From a virus: a DNA stretch of 64,000 nucleotides. Every line of letters begins with the position of its first letter. Position 1 is the stretch's first letter. A program made the translations under genes and the position numbers. Under the pieces are notes generated by a model. That model ran no database searches. It had not been told where the DNA came from and was given only the letters and a program-made list of their open reading frames with translations. This document shows, piece after piece, positions 3,665 through 53,753 of this stretch. Where the stretch lies: positions 1 through 64,000 of the IMG/VR virus record IMGVR_UViG_3300031539_010038. One strand, written 5' to 3'.

Positions 3665-3737
3665 TCCGTGATAACTCAGATGGGAGAGTGGCGTCCTGTT
3701 AAGTCGCAAGTCGCAAGTTCAAGTCTTGCTCACGGAG
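3665..3737 (+). tRNA. tRNA-Asn(GTT)
   Basis: The cloverleaf is complete: acceptor TCCGTGA/TCACGGA, D-arm CTCAGATGGGAGAG, anticodon loop CTGTTAA with GTT at 3698-3700, and T-arm GCAAG/CTTGC with loop TTCAAGT. The anticodon stem GCGTC/GTCGC has one T-T mismatch. No CCA is encoded. Unlike the Tyr-like RNA at 80-165, the elbow elements are intact. Confidence 0.9.
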
Positions 3738-3758
3738 CTAAAGTATATGAAGGGATAA

Positions 3759-4400
3759 ATGAGTGAGAATGTAAAGGCCTGGAGAAAAAGGACCAGGTGG
3801 AGAATTATTGAGGCTATGGGAGGAAAGTGTGTCTGCTGTGGTTATGCAGAATGTTATTCTGCTATGGCATTTCATCATATAAATCCAGACGAAAAAGATT
3901 TTACTATAAGTAATATGAGATCTAATCCCAAGTCTTGGACTAAAATAGTAGAAGAGCTAAGGAAGTGTGTATTAGTTTGTCATAATTGTCATAGTGAGAT
4001 CCATCATGGAATGGGGATTTTACCATCGGACGCAATAAGATTTAATGAAGCATATTCTTCTTATTCTAATTTAGACAAAATTAAATCTAAGAAATTATTT
4101 CCATTCTCTTGGAGCTTTCTTAATGGAAAAGAATGTGAAAATTGTCGAAAAATTACCACTCATAAAAAGTATTGCACACTAAAGTGTGCTGCTGCTGGTA
4201 AAAAAAAGATATGGATTAAGATTCCTATTCGAAGACCAGAGGGATTAGGAAGATATAAAAAAGACTGGCCATCAAATGAAAAATTGATCGAATCACTTAA
4301 AACGCTAAGTTATGATCAATTGGCTATTAAATTAGAAGTATCGGATAATGCTATCCGGAAGCGACTATCGCGTCAAAGAATAAAGGATGCAAAAAAATGA
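3759..4400 (+). CDS. HNH endonuclease with zinc-finger and C-terminal helix-turn-helix
   Basis: This 213-residue protein looks like a free-standing homing-type endonuclease. Residues 24-82 hold a zinc-bound HNH fold: CVCC, then AFHHINPDEK (the HH pair), then CHNCHSEIHHG. A second Cys cluster (CENC, later CTLKC) lies near residues 126-147. The end, LSYDQLAIKLEVSDNAIRK, reads as a helix-turn-helix that could bind DNA. Such genes spread between phages by cutting related genomes, and its position beside a tRNA is typical. AGGGAT precedes the ATG. Confidence 0.85.
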   Translation: MSENVKAWRKRTRWRIIEAMGGKCVCCGYAECYSAMAFHHINPDEKDFTISNMRSNPKSWTKIVEELRKCVLVCHNCHSEIHHGMGILPSDAIRFNEAYSSYSNLDKIKSKKLFPFSWSFLNGKECENCRKITTHKKYCTLKCAAAGKKKIWIKIPIRRPEGLGRYKKDWPSNEKLIESLKTLSYDQLAIKLEVSDNAIRKRLSRQRIKDAKK

Positions 4401-4623: not shown

Positions 4624-5136
4624 ATGTTTGATAGAGTAAAGAACAGTTTTCCGGCACAATATATGGCCTTTAAGGTTAAGAATATGAAAAATCCCCTTAA
4701 GAATGTGAAAAACCCCTTCAAGAAAGAAGAAAAGGAGAAAGAAATGGACGATACGCAAGATACGACTGATAATTTTGATTATGCTGTGGCCCCTAAGCAG
4801 GATCAAGAGGAAGATAAGCCTACGCCTGGCATGATTGATAATCTCAAGGCTGAGGTAAACTCTGCCATGGTCGGCATGGCAGCCGATGAGATTAGCGGGC
4901 AAACCAAGAAGTTTATTGTCGATAAGATTCTAAAGCGAGTCTCTGACGACAATAGAATCAAGAAGGTTCTTGTAGGTCCTCTTGGAGACTCTATTGTTTG
5001 TGCCACCATGGGCCGTGCTATGGATCAGGTTCCTCTCAATGATGAGAAGTTTAAGCGAGTAGCCAATACTCTGCGCATTATGGGCATGTCCCGCGGCATT
5101 ATGGCTGTTAAGAAGATGATCTTCAAGCGTAAGTAA
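4624..5136 (+). CDS. Hypothetical charged protein, 170 aa
   Basis: This is a protein of unknown function with a strong ribosome binding site (AAAGGAGA). The first 60 residues are rich in Lys, Asn and Pro, with a short internal repeat (KNMKNPLKNVKNPFK), then a charged linker. The C-terminal 100 residues look globular and helical and end in a very basic stretch. Codon use has more G and C at third positions than its neighbours, which suggests strong expression or a different origin. Non-coding RNA elements follow it. Confidence 0.75.
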   Translation: MFDRVKNSFPAQYMAFKVKNMKNPLKNVKNPFKKEEKEKEMDDTQDTTDNFDYAVAPKQDQEEDKPTPGMIDNLKAEVNSAMVGMAADEISGQTKKFIVDKILKRVSDDNRIKKVLVGPLGDSIVCATMGRAMDQVPLNDEKFKRVANTLRIMGMSRGIMAVKKMIFKRK

Positions 5137-5849: not shown

Positions 5850-6106
5850 ACCTTCTTCTTAATGTATTTATTCCTGGAGAAATATGGGAATGCAAACCGC
5901 TTAATTCTTTTAGAAAATATATAGGATTATCTACACATGATAATCCTATTATGGGTACCTTCGGAGTATCCTGTGGCGATGGTTTTGTATTCGAGACTAT
6001 TAGTGATCTAACAGATAGTGCTGATACTATAGGAAGAATAGGCGGGGCAAGTTCTAACCTTTTACTTAAAAACTATAAGTATAGTGGGCAGAAGTATGAA
6101 TTATAA
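5846..6106 (+). CDS. Tiny paralog family, L-L-x-x-x-I-P-G type, copy 2
   Basis: This 86-residue protein is of unknown function. Its first 12 residues match the previous copy (MNLLLNVFIPGE), after which the two diverge, as in the first array. Starts and stops overlap on both sides (ATGA with copy 1, 11 bases with copy 3), so the group is one coupled unit. Confidence 0.7.
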   Translation: MNLLLNVFIPGEIWECKPLNSFRKYIGLSTHDNPIMGTFGVSCGDGFVFETISDLTDSADTIGRIGGASSNLLLKNYKYSGQKYEL

Positions 6107-6338
6107 GATAAAGCTGTTGCTTACTCCTCTTATTAGAGGAGAATGTTGGAAAATACAGCATGGCTATGCGCCCCCATTCATAGCCAGGCTACTAAGAAGT
6201 CCAAAGAGTTCCAATGATATTGGCCCGGGGTTATTCCAAATAATTGATGATGATGACGGTAATGACGGTAGTTGGTGCTCGCTAGGGGGCTTTGTTAGAG
6301 ATGGAAAATATCTTGGCATAGAGAAAGATAAAAAATAA
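6096..6338 (+). CDS. Tiny paralog family, L-L-x-P-x-I-x-G type, copy 3
   Basis: This 80-residue protein is of unknown function. The ATG at 6096 is preferred over the in-frame GTG at 6084 because it yields KIKLLLTPLIRGECWKI, matching the later 34-residue copy (KLLLTPIIKGWDYLK). Residues 48-57 hold an acidic Asp/Gly-rich stretch. The stop at 6338 overlaps the next ATG by one base. Confidence 0.65.
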   Translation: MNYKIKLLLTPLIRGECWKIQHGYAPPFIARLLRSPKSSNDIGPGLFQIIDDDDGNDGSWCSLGGFVRDGKYLGIEKDKK

Positions 6339-6687: not shown

Positions 6688-7263
6688 GTGAATATAGAAA
6701 AACTGAAAGAACTTCGAGAGAAAACGAATGTTTCTATGAATGCTTGCCGGAAAGCTCTAGAGGAATCTTCCGGCGATATGGATAAGGCTATTAAGATCTT
6801 AAAGACCAAAAGTCTTATGGTTGCTGGAGATGTATCGGAAAAATCTACATCAGAAGGTAAGATTTGTTCTTATATCCATCCTGGAAATAAGCTTGCTGTT
6901 TTGCTTGAAGTCCAATGCGAGACAGATTTTGCGGCAAGATCCGAGGATTTTAACCAATTTTGTGAAAGCGTATACCTTCAAATTGCAGGGATGAGCCCTA
7001 TTTATCTATCAAGAGATCAGGTTGATGATGATAAGTATAAAGATCAAAGAGAAATCTTTACAGCTCAGGTCAAGGATAAACCAGAAAAGATTCAAGAGAA
7101 AATTATAGAAGGTAAATTTAATAAATGGTTCGGTGATGTCTGCCTCTTGGAGCAAAAGCTGGTTCAAGATAATGATAAAACCGTTAAGCAATTAAGAGAT
7201 GAACTTATCGGAAAACTTCGAGAGAACGTGGTAATAAAGCGTTTCGTGCGTTGGGAAATATGA
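6688..7263 (+). CDS. tsf: Translation elongation factor Ts homolog
   Basis: EF-Ts reloads EF-Tu with GTP during elongation. This 191-residue protein keeps the N-terminal UBA-like helices (LREKTNVSMNACRKALEE, residues 9-26), the core QCETDF motif (77-81 region) that inserts next to the EF-Tu nucleotide site, and a C-terminal EGKFNKWF...LLEQ segment. It is shorter than the roughly 280-residue E. coli protein, mainly through a reduced dimerisation part. The start codon is GTG, directly after the previous stop. EF-Ts is rare in phages. It joins IF-3, bS21 and other translation genes in this window. Q-beta phage uses host EF-Ts in its replicase, so a non-translation role is also possible. Confidence 0.93.
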   Translation: MNIEKLKELREKTNVSMNACRKALEESSGDMDKAIKILKTKSLMVAGDVSEKSTSEGKICSYIHPGNKLAVLLEVQCETDFAARSEDFNQFCESVYLQIAGMSPIYLSRDQVDDDKYKDQREIFTAQVKDKPEKIQEKIIEGKFNKWFGDVCLLEQKLVQDNDKTVKQLRDELIGKLRENVVIKRFVRWEI

Positions 7264-10500: not shown

Positions 10501-10528
10501 TTGACGCTTGGCTCCGGTTGGCTATAAT
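10501..10528 (+). promoter_or_regulatory. Strong sigma70-type promoter for the structured RNA/tRNA unit
   Basis: TTGACG (10501-10506), 16 bases, then TATAAT (10523-10528), a perfect -10. Transcription should start near 10535 and cover a 240-base non-coding stretch and the tRNA-Leu-like RNA. GC precedes the -35 and GGC the -10, as at other promoters here. Confidence 0.88.
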
Positions 10529-10534
10529 ACGGAT

Positions 10535-10775
10535 GTTAGATTGACCAGATGCCGATGAAACAATCGACCAAAGATACGGGAGTAGCTAGCTCTCTCAATA
10601 AGGGATGGAGAGAGTCCCTTTCAGATCCTTTTAGCAAGATCTGATAAGTCTCAAACCTTGGTTTGACCCAGGGTCTTCCCGAGACATCTCCAAATCTCGG
10701 GAGCACTAATGAAAAAGTCTACAAAAAAATTAATTTTATGATAAGATGTAGATGAGTATCTAGTGCTCTCTTTTA
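10535..10775 (+). ncRNA. Promoter-driven structured RNA of unknown family
   Basis: No ORF is supported in these 240 bases. Several perfect hairpins occur: CTCTCTC/GAGAGAG (10590-10614); an alternative AAGGGA/TCCCTT (10600-10620) that competes or pseudoknots with it; TCAGATC/GATCTGA (10621-10644); TCAAAC/GTTTGA with a CTTG tetraloop (10651-10666); TCCCGAGA/TCTCGGGA (10677-10702); and TGCTCT/AGAGCA (10764-10780), which invades the start of the tRNA-like RNA. I see no RNase P, tmRNA or 6S signature. It is probably a small RNA, or a long structured leader processed off the tRNA-like RNA. Confidence 0.6.
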
Positions 10776-10867
10776 GAGCAGTTGGCGGAATTGGCAGACG
10801 CGACAGGGTACTTCGGTATTCTGTTGGCCGCAAGGTCGTCCAGGTTCAAGTCCTGGACTGCTCACCA
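10776..10867 (+). ncRNA. tRNA-Leu-like RNA with a UUCG hairpin instead of an anticodon
   Basis: The acceptor GAGCAGT/ACTGCTC, discriminator A, encoded CCA (10865-10867), Leu-type D-arm (GCGGAATTGGCAGACGC), long variable arm (GGCC, GCAA tetraloop, GGTC) and T-arm (CCAGG, TTCAAGT, CCTGG) are all intact. Where the anticodon arm should be, 10803-10811 pair with 10816-10824 as 9 continuous base pairs capped by TTCG (10812-10815). No register leaves a 7-base loop with T33, so no anticodon is presented. It could be charged or processed like a tRNA but could not decode. Confidence 0.75.
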
Positions 10868-10896
10868 CAAAACAAAAAAAAAAAAAAAGACATGAA

Positions 10897-11622
10897 ATGG
10901 AATATGATAATTATCTAGAAGCGGTAGAGATTACATCTGAAATGAAGAAAGCTGGGAAAGATCCCAGCTTTCTTAGTTTTTGCATCAAATATTTAGACGA
11001 TGATATACTAAAATATCTTAGGCTTTGGAATGATGATCGCTGGAATAATAATCACATTCAAGATCTTAATTATATTTTAGATAAACATGTTTATTTAACA
11101 AAGGCTATGGATTATAGCAGAGCTTTGCGAGAGTGGCTATCGATCAGGTTGAAAAATGGGCAAGAATATCCGACAAATGTCGACCAGCTTCTGGCTGATA
11201 TTGAGCACTCTGCTCTTCTTCCCAGAATATTAAATGGAGATAAAATTTATCCGGAGCCTCCACCTGGTAGTTGGTATGATCTTATAGAAAAAGGAAAAGC
11301 TAAAACCATTTCTCTTAAAGAGTATGGGAAAACATTATTGATTGATCAATCAATATGGAATATAATTGAAAAAGTAAAGGATGGGGAGTGGGTGGCGTCC
11401 TATGAGATAATAGACGCTGAGGCGCTAGAAAAGATAGCAAAGGATCACGAGCGCACATTGGAGGACGTACTGCATGAGATGCAGTATGCTTTGCCAAAGA
11501 GATTAGCTAGCACAAGATGGAAGATATCTTACCTTGGCAAAGAGAATATTTCTACAATCGGTCAACCATATATGGCTGATACCTGGGAAATTTGCAAACT
11601 GTTTTTGAAAATAGGAGAATAA
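10897..11622 (+). CDS. Hypothetical protein, 241 aa
   Basis: This is a soluble, mostly helical protein of unknown function with no recognised domain. The first 120 residues are rich in Asp, Tyr and Leu; near residues 120-135 there is a Pro-rich turn (YPEPPPGSWYD). A run of about 15 A lies 15-25 bases before the ATG, with no clear Shine-Dalgarno site, so translation may rely on A-rich initiation. It follows the tRNA-Leu-like RNA and is probably on the same transcript. Confidence 0.75.
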   Translation: MEYDNYLEAVEITSEMKKAGKDPSFLSFCIKYLDDDILKYLRLWNDDRWNNNHIQDLNYILDKHVYLTKAMDYSRALREWLSIRLKNGQEYPTNVDQLLADIEHSALLPRILNGDKIYPEPPPGSWYDLIEKGKAKTISLKEYGKTLLIDQSIWNIIEKVKDGEWVASYEIIDAEALEKIAKDHERTLEDVLHEMQYALPKRLASTRWKISYLGKENISTIGQPYMADTWEICKLFLKIGE

Positions 11623-11887: not shown

Positions 11888-11921
11888 CGACGTGCCCACC
11901 ACTTTTAATATAAAACCAACA

Positions 11922-12134
11922 ATGAATTATACCAAAGAAGAACTCGAACTACTAGCCTCTTTGGCGACCAGAGAGGGAAACGCGCGGGTCCGCGACAACG
12001 AGGCGCGTGATATGGGGCTGTGCCCAACGATGATGCGGGACCTTGGGCAAGGACCCAGACAGGACGCGGATAGGTGTTTCGAGTTAGCCGGTCGACTCCG
12101 GGCCGGTGGCGCGGGAAAAGCCCCACATCGATGA
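11922..12134 (+). CDS. Doubtful ORF in a GC-rich patch
   Basis: An ORF of 70 residues (80 if the GTG at 11892 is used) crosses a stretch, about 11965-12125, that is far richer in G+C than anything nearby. The first 20 residues (MNYTKEELELLASLA) look natural and helical; the rest is Arg/Gly/Asp-rich. No Shine-Dalgarno site is visible, and both strands are open here (also minus 11927-12304), which weakens the coding call. The patch holds near-perfect hairpins (e.g. GGGACCTTG with CAAGGACCC, one mismatch) and may be structured RNA or a recent insertion. Confidence 0.35.
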   Translation: MNYTKEELELLASLATREGNARVRDNEARDMGLCPTMMRDLGQGPRQDADRCFELAGRLRAGGAGKAPHR

Positions 12135-12177
12135 AATAAATGCATCATAAAAATAAAAGAGCGCGCAAGAGAACGAA

Positions 12178-16203: not shown

Positions 16204-16216
16204 CAAATTGGATAAT

Positions 16217-16804: not shown

Positions 16805-17266
16805 ATGTATCTTTTATTGATTCGTCGAGATAAGATGTCTTTCATCTTAAAAATTAAGATGAAGAAGGCTCAAGATGATCCGTGGGTGCTGTATTTGGTG
16901 GTCAATAAGGACCTAAATATGGGATTGGGAAAAGTTGCTGCACAATGTGGACATGGCGTTGGGCAGCTCGATATTTATCATGAGAGTATCTTGACGAAGA
17001 GTCTTCAAGGCAAAAAGTTATCGAAGCAGGAGATGGCTCATTTCGATAGAGTTTCTTCTTGGAGAAAAGACTCATTTCGGAAGATAGTTCTTGAGGGGTC
17101 TAATAAGACCTGGAATAGATTAAAAAGCCTAGATTGCAAACATTTTATTGTTAGAGATGCCGGATTCACAGAAGTATCTCCTGGATCTGAAACGGTAATA
17201 GCATATTTGCCTATGCAAAAATCTCAAGTGCCAGAGCTTCTGGCTAAACTTCGACTACTTAAATAA
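16805..17266 (+). CDS. pth2: Peptidyl-tRNA hydrolase, Pth2 family
   Basis: Pth2 cleaves the ester bond of peptidyl-tRNA that drops off ribosomes, which recycles the tRNA. Motifs: LVVNKDLNMGLGKVAAQCGHG (residues 31-51) and FIVRDAGFTEVSPGSETVIA (114-133). Both match the archaeal/eukaryotic-type Pth2 fold, not the bacterial Pth1. About 20 residues precede the usual start; ATG codons at 16835 and 16859 are alternatives. Bacteria use Pth1, so this gene is an unusual acquisition that fits the phage's own translation set. Confidence 0.9.
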   Translation: MYLLLIRRDKMSFILKIKMKKAQDDPWVLYLVVNKDLNMGLGKVAAQCGHGVGQLDIYHESILTKSLQGKKLSKQEMAHFDRVSSWRKDSFRKIVLEGSNKTWNRLKSLDCKHFIVRDAGFTEVSPGSETVIAYLPMQKSQVPELLAKLRLLK

Positions 17267-19973: not shown

Positions 19974-20489
19974 ATGACCTCCTTAAATGTCATAAACAAA
20001 TATAGAGCTTGGACAAAAGACCTAATTAAAGAAGATTTGGTTAAGCATCCTTATGCTATCTGTCTGGAGCATTGGGATGGAGATTTTAATCTTGGAACGG
20101 CCATTCGTAATGCCAATGCTTTCGGGGCTAAGGAGGTCTTCTATTTAGGAGGCAAGAAGAAATGGGATAGGAGATCTGCGGTAGGTACGCATAATTATAC
20201 TGATGTTAAATTTCTTAATGACAGGGATGATTTAAATAATGTAAGGAAGACATATCCTTATTTAATTGGTATAGATAATATTCCTGGTGCTATCCCGGTG
20301 GAGTCCTATACTTTTCCAAGCAATTGTCTTCTTATATTTGGAGAAGAGGGCCTCGGCCTGACAGATGAGACAATAGCCATGTGCGATCTTCTTATTGAAA
20401 TAACAATGTGTGGTTCGGTGCGCTCATTAAATGCAGGAACCTCAACAGGAATTATTCTTCATAAAATAAACCAACAATATGCAATGTAA
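19974..20489 (+). CDS. SpoU/TrmH-family RNA 2'-O-ribose methyltransferase
   Basis: SPOUT methyltransferases use SAM to methylate a ribose in tRNA or rRNA. All three motifs are present: NLGTAIRNANAFGA (residues 39-52, with the catalytic Arg45), LLIFGEEGLGL (119-129) and ITMCGSVRSLNAGTS (143-157), which form the knotted SAM site. The length (171 aa) fits the TrmH/TrmL subgroup, which acts on tRNA. Target tRNAs could be the host's or the phage's own. It overlaps the next gene by 11 bases. Confidence 0.92.
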   Translation: MTSLNVINKYRAWTKDLIKEDLVKHPYAICLEHWDGDFNLGTAIRNANAFGAKEVFYLGGKKKWDRRSAVGTHNYTDVKFLNDRDDLNNVRKTYPYLIGIDNIPGAIPVESYTFPSNCLLIFGEEGLGLTDETIAMCDLLIEITMCGSVRSLNAGTSTGIILHKINQQYAM

Positions 20490-21295: not shown

Positions 21296-22144
21296 ATGGC
21301 AGATTCTCTGGCTGCAAGACAGCAACAATACGAAGAGGTGTCTAATATAGAGCTTACTCGAAGACTTCCGGTCATCATTAGATGTGATGGGCGAGGGTTC
21401 CACAAATTTACCAGCAAGCTGTCAAGACCTTTTAGTCCCTTATTGTTAGATGTTATGGTTCAGGCCATGACATATGCCGTTCAGGAGATGCCAGGAGCCA
21501 TATTTGCATATCAGCAATCAGATGAAATTACCTTTGTATTAAGGAATGACCAAACGTTTGATACAGAGCCATGGCATCAAAATAAGGTGCAAAAACTTGC
21601 CTCTGCATCTGCTGCATTAGTAACATTTGGCTTTAATAAAGCCTTAATGCAATGTGATCCAAAGCTTAGCACGGTAGGAGACGCTTTATTTGATGCTAAG
21701 GTATTTACTCTTCCATACTATAATGAGGTCCTAAATCATCTTATTTGGAGGCAACAGGATTGCATTCATAATGCAGTTTCAGCGGCTGCCTCGACAGAAC
21801 TGACAAAAAAGATTGGAAAAAAGACGGCAAGGAAACTTGTTCACAACAAAAGTATATCTGAAAAAGTAGATCTGCTTCGAACAAATTGCAAAATTGAATA
21901 TAATAAGCATTACCCTTCTCCATTTAGAAGGGGGGTCTTAGCGTGCAAGGTGCCAATAGCTTATCCTACAAAGGAAGGCGAGGTGACTCGTAATAAATGG
22001 ATAATTAATTCTGAAATACCTATATTTTCAGAAGATCGTGATTATATATATAATATTCTGATAAATGGTAGAGACGTGTTTAGAACAGGGATAACTAATG
22101 CAGAAAAAGCTAATATATCTTCAGTTGACAGATCTTCATCTTAA
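21296..22144 (+). CDS. Thg1-like protein (tRNA 3'-5' polymerase family)
   Basis: Thg1 adds G to the 5' end of tRNA-His; Thg1-like proteins repair truncated tRNA 5' ends by 3'-5' addition. The metal-binding palm is visible: PVIIRCDGRGFHKF (residues 25-38, Asp31), YQQSDEITF (72-80, Asp76/Glu77) and WRQQDCIHNAV (151-161), in the place of the Thg1 HINNLYN motif. The length (282 aa) is normal. Bacterial and phage members are usually the repair type. Together with aberrant tRNA-like RNAs in this window it suggests tRNA repair or maturation during infection. Its end overlaps the next gene by 47 bases. Confidence 0.9.
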   Translation: MADSLAARQQQYEEVSNIELTRRLPVIIRCDGRGFHKFTSKLSRPFSPLLLDVMVQAMTYAVQEMPGAIFAYQQSDEITFVLRNDQTFDTEPWHQNKVQKLASASAALVTFGFNKALMQCDPKLSTVGDALFDAKVFTLPYYNEVLNHLIWRQQDCIHNAVSAAASTELTKKIGKKTARKLVHNKSISEKVDLLRTNCKIEYNKHYPSPFRRGVLACKVPIAYPTKEGEVTRNKWIINSEIPIFSEDRDYIYNILINGRDVFRTGITNAEKANISSVDRSSS

Positions 22145-52624: not shown

Positions 52625-52701
52625 ATCCTCGAAAGCCATATCTATGCCTCTCCATATTGGAGAGGACAGGATACATTTACCCAAAACAAAAGGAACGAGC
52701 A

Positions 52702-53241
52702 TTGAGACAGAAGACCGAGAGAAGTTATGTAAATAGACAAATAAAACTACCAGAAGTTTTATGTATTGATATTGAAAATAATAACTTAGGGAAGATACCA
52801 ACAAATCAAGCATTAGAAATAGCTGAGAAGCAGGGGCTTGATTTGGTACAGGTTGGCTTTAATCAGCAATCCAGATTGCCAACGTGCAAAATTATGGACT
52901 ATGGCAAACATCGATATGAAGTTAGCAAGAAGCTGAAAGTGGCTCAAAAAAAGCAGAAAGAGTCTATTGTAAAAAATAAAGAAATAAAGTTGCGCCCAAC
53001 TACGGATATTCATGACTTAAAGGTAAAGGCCAAGAAGGTCGAGACCTTTTTGGATAAGAACTACAATGTTAAGATTGTCTTAATGTTTCGTGGAAGAGAG
53101 ATGTCTCATAAAGAAGTAGGGTTAGAAACATTAAATATGCTTATAAATCTCATTCCAAATGCGTCACTGAATAGTGAAATAAAATCTGAAGGAAAGGTTT
53201 TATCTGTATTATTGGTGAAATCAAATGCTGATCTGTCATGA
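52702..53241 (+). CDS. infC: Translation initiation factor IF-3
   Basis: IF-3 binds the 30S subunit, checks the start codon and initiator tRNA, and blocks early 50S joining. Here the N-domain ends at PTCKIMDYGKHRYE, followed by the Lys-rich linker, KEIKLRPTTDIHD, and VKIVLMFRGREMSHKE in the C-domain. The start is set at the TTG at 52702 with AAGGA 7 bases upstream, which gives 179 residues, near the E. coli length. Bacterial infC also uses a rare start (AUU) for self-control, so a non-AUG start may be meaningful. It overlaps the deformylase gene by ATGA. IF-3 in a phage is unusual. Confidence 0.95.
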   Translation: MRQKTERSYVNRQIKLPEVLCIDIENNNLGKIPTNQALEIAEKQGLDLVQVGFNQQSRLPTCKIMDYGKHRYEVSKKLKVAQKKQKESIVKNKEIKLRPTTDIHDLKVKAKKVETFLDKNYNVKIVLMFRGREMSHKEVGLETLNMLINLIPNASLNSEIKSEGKVLSVLLVKSNADLS

Positions 53242-53753
53242 TAATAACAGATGAAAATCTACTGAGAGCTGAGTGCTCTGAAGTTTCTCCAGAAGAGATT
53301 GCTCCACTGCGAGACCTCTTAGAGAAGGAGCTTCAGGACTCAGCTCGACTTGGACGCATAGGAGTTGGATTGGCAGCTCCACAGATAGGTATTTTTAAGA
53401 AAATGGCCATAGTCAGGCTCCCAGCATCGATGGGAAATTTTAATATTGACTTGGTTAACATCAAGGAGTACAAAGGATATGACAAGGTATTATTTAATAA
53501 TGAAGGATGCTTATCATTTCCAAATTATTATGTAGACAGTTTGAGATATCAGGAAATATATGTAACAAATAATGGAGTAGAACCATTCTCTTTTATTGCA
53601 ACAGGGATGGCGGCTATTTGTTGTCAGCATGAGATAGATCATCTTAGAGGTATTCTTCTAACAGATATTGGAATTCCCACAGATGCAGCCAAGAAAGCAA
53701 TCTTAAAAGCGCGCCAACCTCGCGGATGTCTGGCGCCAAATATTAAAGTATAG
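53238..53753 (+). CDS. def: Peptide deformylase
   Basis: Removes the formyl group from the first Met of new proteins. The three motifs are GVGLAAPQIG (42-51), EGCLSFP (89-95) and QHEIDHLRG (130-138), giving Cys91, His131 and His135 for the metal and Glu132 as catalyst. Phage deformylases are known, mostly in cyanophages. Coupling to IF-3 by a 4-base overlap links start-site choice to processing of the first residue. A terminator follows. Confidence 0.95.
   Translation: MIITDENLLRAECSEVSPEEIAPLRDLLEKELQDSARLGRIGVGLAAPQIGIFKKMAIVRLPASMGNFNIDLVNIKEYKGYDKVLFNNEGCLSFPNYYVDSLRYQEIYVTNNGVEPFSFIATGMAAICCQHEIDHLRGILLTDIGIPTDAAKKAILKARQPRGCLAPNIKV

Follow-up and report, generated by a model that had tools for sequence, protein, structure and literature searches.

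The virus DNA analysed here, a stretch of 64,000 nucleotides (the window) taken from a virus record 70,933 bases long, encodes a tRNA-Leu-like RNA in which a hairpin capped by a UUCG tetraloop occupies the place of the anticodon arm. We tentatively favor, at a probability of about 0.45, the reading that this element is a selected, non-decoding tRNA that can probably be leucylated and that acts in trans, perhaps as a decoy.

A first, sequence-only reading had described a tRNA-Leu-like RNA with a UUCG tetraloop replacing the anticodon, and both direct reading of 10776–10867 and folding confirm it. The 5′ half runs GAGCAGU-UG-GCGGAAUUGGCAGACGC-G-ACAGGGUAC[UUCG]GUAUUCUGU-U and the 3′ half GGCC[GCAA]GGUC-GU-CCAGG-UUCAAGU-CCUGG-ACUGCUC-A-CCA (Table 1). 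The predicted fold has an energy of −40 kcal/mol (z −3.45), which is matched by 0/200 shuffles; two of the nine pairs of the UUCG hairpin are G.U (G31.U39 and the pair next to it), and an extra G26.U44 pair is possible beside it. The 7-bp acceptor, 5-bp T stem, long variable arm and A73 are those of a tRNA-Leu body, and a 7-nt anticodon loop with a leucine anticodon, as a decoding tRNA-Leu would carry, is absent. The acceptor, D and T arms and the encoded CCA show no visible decay, as had been claimed. Closure of the variable arm on GCAA is nothing unusual in a tRNA-Leu. The sequence CTTCGG is likewise not rare in the window (16 occurrences observed, 14.5 expected), and what is unusual is its placement within an intact tRNA, not the motif itself.

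Table 1. Positions of the tRNA-Leu-like RNA, its surroundings in the window, and related RNAs in other records.
Feature	Position	Strand	Evidence or remark
Whole tRNA-Leu-like RNA, 92 nt, CCA encoded	10776–10867	+	sequence read, fold, body and identity checks
Acceptor stem 5′ strand GAGCAGU	10776–10782	+	7/7 pairs with 10857–10863
D arm GCGGAAUUGGCAGACGC with A14, A15, G18G19, A20a	10785–10801	+	
9-bp hairpin at place of anticodon arm	10803–10824	+	fold
UUCG tetraloop, closing pair C10811–G10816	10812–10815	+	
Variable arm GGCC-GCAA-GGUC	10826–10837	+	fold
Nucleotide 48, U, giving A15–U48	10839	+	
T arm CCAGG-UUCAAGU-CCUGG	10840–10856	+	stem 5/5 paired
Acceptor 3′ strand ACUGCUC, discriminator A73, CCA	10857–10867	+	
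Likely promoter TTGACG-16-TATAAT	10501–10528	+	11/12 consensus positions
Structured non-coding leader, promoter to tRNA-like	10535–10775	+	fold z −3.08
A15 tract directly after CCA, longest A tract of window	10874–10888	+	
Downstream ORF, 241 aa, no known family	10897–11622	+	first codons score as coding
13-bp terminator-like hairpin, then AGTTTTTG	10945–10974	+	in codons 17–26 of ORF 10897–11622
EF-Ts, PTH2, SpoU methylase, Thg1-like, IF-3, peptide deformylase	6688–7263, 16805–17266, 19974–20489, 21296–22144, 52657–53753		
UUCG-capped anticodon-less type I body (not Leu), L210	5018–5098		
Same, L189	109–182		
Same, L251	9558–9632		
Same, L273	1785–1859		
Same, L267	4536–4615		
Same, L195	6724–6808		
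Class A members L130, L094, L105, L107, L110, L141, L148, L155, L158, L374, L426, L411			

The conservation of this body extends to single positions. Seventeen body positions are at least 90 per cent conserved among 164 ordinary tRNA-Leu drawn from the loci fetched in this analysis, and the element matches all 17, with a profile score at the 7th percentile of ordinary tRNA-Leu, in range though not typical. The combination of A15–U48, A20a and A73, which it also carries, is found in 204 of 225 ordinary leucine tRNAs and in only 1/88 serine and 1/40 tyrosine tRNAs. In Escherichia coli, leucine identity resides in A73, A15–U48, G18G19, A20a and contacts between the D and T loops, and a tRNA-Leu without its anticodon arm is still charged (PMC9976931). 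Judged by leucyl-tRNA synthetase identity elements taken from that work, the element has A73, A14, A15–U48, G18G19 and A20a. Given that the identity set is kept and that the armless E. coli tRNA-Leu is charged (PMC9976931), leucine charging of the element is likely, and the earlier suggestion that charging would be independent of the anticodon is plausible. Among the five tRNA-type genes of the phage it alone encodes CCA, the four ordinary tRNAs of the window being without it, and no further tRNA was found within the last 7 kb of the virus record.

Standard tools do not report the element. ARAGORN called tRNA-Pro, Asn, Ile and Ser in the window, and Rfam found the same four, neither making a call at 10776–10867; relaxing Rfam to E ≤ 5 on the local stretch gave no tRNA match to it. 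As a tmRNA it drew neither an RF00023 match nor an ARAGORN call.

No close or syntenic relative of the locus was recovered by blastn, by tblastn of the neighbors or by a related-locus search, the matches being ordinary tRNA-Leu bodies, and the flanks of L027, which holds a distant relative of the 446-aa neighbor (29 per cent identity), had no tRNA call. The element is thus a single copy without a homologous locus, so that no covariation is available for it. Viral pattern scans, however, found similar UUCG- and GAAA-capped tRNA-likes in other phages, where the sequence-only reading had proposed to look for the same arm. These scans were pattern-based, with fixed D-arm and T-loop words, and covered viral contigs that are incomplete. 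A pattern that required a leucine D arm, a T loop and, in the anticodon arm, cUUCGg retrieved L011/L012, a tRNA-Leu-like from within a tRNA array in which UUCG caps a 5-bp stem, together with L009 and L010, whose middles are odder. Among the matches listed from a scan for type I tRNAs, the counts of which are lower bounds, were UUCG-capped bodies that are not Leu (e.g. L210, L267, L195), and leucine charging is therefore not common to all capped cases; the capped tRNA-like of L251 lies directly between two genes. A scan for GAAA caps gave, among the matches listed, the Leu-like L399. Two Leu-like cases, L112 and L173, have broken acceptors and could be decaying tRNAs. A looser TTCG pattern was discarded, its matches being mostly ordinary tRNAs in which TTCG falls within a stem or the variable arm.

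Cellular genomes gave a different picture. The leucine pattern run over 84,980 cellular species genomes returned 59 stretches and no UUCG-capped case: all but two were ordinary tRNA-Leu with CCTTCGG after the anticodon, and the two exceptions, L036 and a rearranged second copy in L063, are not UUCG-capped in the manner of the element. The L036 stretch (6103–6167) is a tRNA-Leu-like body from a Lachnospiraceae MAG, in which ARAGORN reads a UUU anticodon with C33. Named phages searched with one class A example (see below) and one type I example gave short tRNA 3′-end matches or none, and searches of an open-access library turned up no description of a tetraloop-capped phage tRNA. The scans also brought up two other kinds of sequence: tRNA 3′ parts that seem to follow a group I intron-like end (L118 at 3723–3793 and 4975–5044, L149, L159, L171, L097, L120), and tRNA-Leu-like bodies with a second T-arm-like hairpin at the place of the anticodon arm (L014 at 103–188, L018, L024).

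A looser viral scan with a cloverleaf filter exposed what is apparently an undescribed phage RNA family, here termed class A, with at least 12 distinct sequences and one copy in each of 12 records; L374, L426 and L411 were among the matches listed from the GAAA-cap scan. The members are tRNA-like and combine a tetraloop-capped arm (UUCG or GAAA) with a long two-part variable arm and CCA, and Rfam gave no family above threshold for them. Two-sided compensation occurs in 7 of 16 tested pairs compared with a shuffle mean of 2.8, and 0/500 shuffles reach 7, although this shuffling does not remove the relatedness among the 12 sequences. The capped arm is nearly invariant in most members, so that covariation there is weak, and its length and cap vary. 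All 12 carry the leucine identity set, in which the search pattern itself partly dictated A20a, but neither A15–U48 nor A73. In every one a predicted promoter (−35/−10, 17-nt spacer) ends 6 nt before nucleotide 1, with the predicted transcription start exactly at nucleotide 1; the −35 box is weak in L426 and L411. We rejected the idea that the class A arm (CCUCC/GGAGG) mimics a Shine–Dalgarno sequence, as L426 and L411 carry other bases there.

The element shares with class A the tetraloop hairpin in place of the anticodon arm, the leucine identity set and CCA, whereas the different D arm, the long two-part variable arm and the start site at nucleotide 1 belong to class A alone. On the class A covariance model it scores 27.5 bits, no better than an ordinary tRNA-Leu, where members score 87–114 and ordinary tRNAs as much as 48; nor does a promoter adjoin its nucleotide 1, the best upstream site matching 8/12 positions (p 0.78). 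It is therefore similar in design to class A and not a member, and class A speaks for it by analogy only. Standard tools miss or misname such genes, reporting class A as Arg, Pro or nothing and the element as nothing, and for this reason the class could easily have been overlooked.

On the reading that we tentatively favor, a tRNA-Leu body would have been kept working while a stable structural hairpin substituted for the anticodon loop. The RNA would be transcribed together with the adjoining phage genes and processed as the phage's other tRNAs are, and the host leucyl-tRNA synthetase, for which A73 and the elbow are needed and the anticodon is not, would probably charge it. Since it cannot pair with a codon, it would stand outside decoding and work in trans, its most likely role being that of a decoy or competitor for host factors recognising tRNAs by their body, CCA tail or leucyl group. 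The sequence-only reading had proposed, besides a possible sensor, primer or means of sequestering leucyl-tRNA synthetase, a decoy for host tRNA nucleases, and for anticodon nucleases this is the least likely form of decoy, given that the loop they recognise and cut is missing. Targets that act on the tail or body fit better. The tail-cutting immunity enzyme Cas12a3 requires the CCA end and not the tRNA loops (PMC12851939), and thus a non-decoding tRNA ending in CCA could absorb it without cost to translation. Whether this extends to a general phage class, in which leucylatable code-blind tRNAs are counter-defence decoys against immune enzymes attacking the body or CCA tail, the element being one case of convergence and class A another family with an evolutionary origin of its own, is in our view doubtful.

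Alternatively, a captured tRNA-Leu may have lost its anticodon loop to an insertion, the rest of the gene not yet having drifted. The single copy without relatives, the 7th-percentile body score and the broken acceptors of other Leu-like examples would agree with such decay. However, the loop, 5 nt longer, forms a perfect extension closed by cUUCGg, and we estimate the probability that a random 12-nt loop would add three pairs onto cUUCGg at ∼1e-5, rising to a few times 1e-4 when every stable tetraloop counts. No conserved body position is changed and both long stems pair fully, and the design recurs in phages and was seen in none of the 84,980 genomes. Code-blind tRNA mimics in many other phages make the element look selected rather than broken, and decay is accordingly unlikely.

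A role in cis is about equally unlikely. On this account the tRNA-like fold, lying in the 5′ part of a transcript, would direct RNase P cleavage or would stabilise or regulate the mRNA of ORF 10897–11622. The surroundings lend it some appeal: a strong, near-consensus promoter is predicted 248 nt upstream of the tRNA-like, only 29 nt, including the A15 tract, separate CCA from the start of the ORF, the first codons of which hold the strong terminator-like hairpin with its T-rich tail, and class A RNAs likewise closely precede ORFs. The leader between promoter and tRNA-like has no Rfam family match, and its first 178 nt fold with a z of only −1.66. The arms of an inverted repeat within it, at 10701–10768 (GAGCACTA/TAGTGCTC), are similar to the acceptor strands of the tRNA-like, and an alternative UGCUC/GAGCA pairing between the repeat and the acceptor is possible. 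Against a cis role, ordinary tRNAs of the same phage also lie 3–20 nt ahead of ORFs (3738 to 3759; 16204 to 16208), so that the location of the element is that of a tRNA gene and its position alone is no argument. Class A RNAs, moreover, are present in one copy per record and precede at least three different genes, and a bare processing signal would need neither leucine identity elements nor an encoded CCA.

Translation genes are plentiful in the phage (EF-Ts, IF-3, peptide deformylase, peptidyl-tRNA hydrolase 2, a Thg1-like enzyme and a SpoU methylase), which also encodes ClpP, GroES, TopA and SbcC/SbcD-like proteins. The presence of ClpP and EF-Ts, and the retention of a leucine identity set without decoding, are consistent with a charged RNA that is used off the ribosome, for example by an N-degron leucyl transferase, or that occupies leucyl-tRNA synthetase or EF-Tu. 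Leu/Phe-tRNA transferases read mainly the aminoacyl end, and Staphylococcus aureus has a non-proteinogenic tRNA-Gly (PMC4052509). No transferase was found, however, among the part of the phage ORFs that was searched against family libraries, and a sink would require very high expression; use as a leucine donor or sink is thus quite improbable. That the sequence or its assembly is wrong, or that an ordinary tRNA-Leu has an unrecognised intron in its anticodon loop, is far more improbable still: the locus is known from one read-out, but a 9-bp UUCG hairpin is not expected from error, the same design stands in independent contigs, and we know of no bacterial intron type of ∼5 nt.

The usual explanations for phage tRNA genes, codon supply and the replacement of tRNAs cut by defences, both need an anticodon. 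That a tRNA unable to decode is retained suggests that selection can act on the tRNA body itself, and the class allows body- or tail-directed immunity, and charged tRNA use outside translation, to be tested directly. Relative to bacterial tRNA-Leu (RF00005), the element has the cloverleaf, long variable arm, A73, A15–U48, G18G19, A20a and CCA in common, and differs in having no anticodon loop and in escaping the tRNA model. Some phage tRNAs evade anticodon nucleases through loop mutations (PMC10264068) or are supplied against retron effectors (PMC11555353). The element is likewise phage-encoded and possibly part of the tRNA-directed arms race, but those tRNAs keep a decoding loop and replace a lost tRNA, whereas the element cannot decode. 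The non-proteinogenic tRNA-Gly of S. aureus is also a natural tRNA, thought to be charged, that is kept off translation, through weak EF-Tu binding (PMC4052509) where the element has lost its anticodon. A tmRNA (RF00023) similarly pairs a tRNA-like acceptor end with the lack of an anticodon, whereas the element has no mRNA-like domain, a normal D arm and the Leu rather than the Ala type.

Two further regions of the window stand apart from this locus. A G+C-rich patch without a clear gene lies at 11890–12150 in a phage that is otherwise A+T-rich, and eight small adjacent ORFs at 169–2434 are mostly paralogue-like, with a motif near LLxKYxRExYF.
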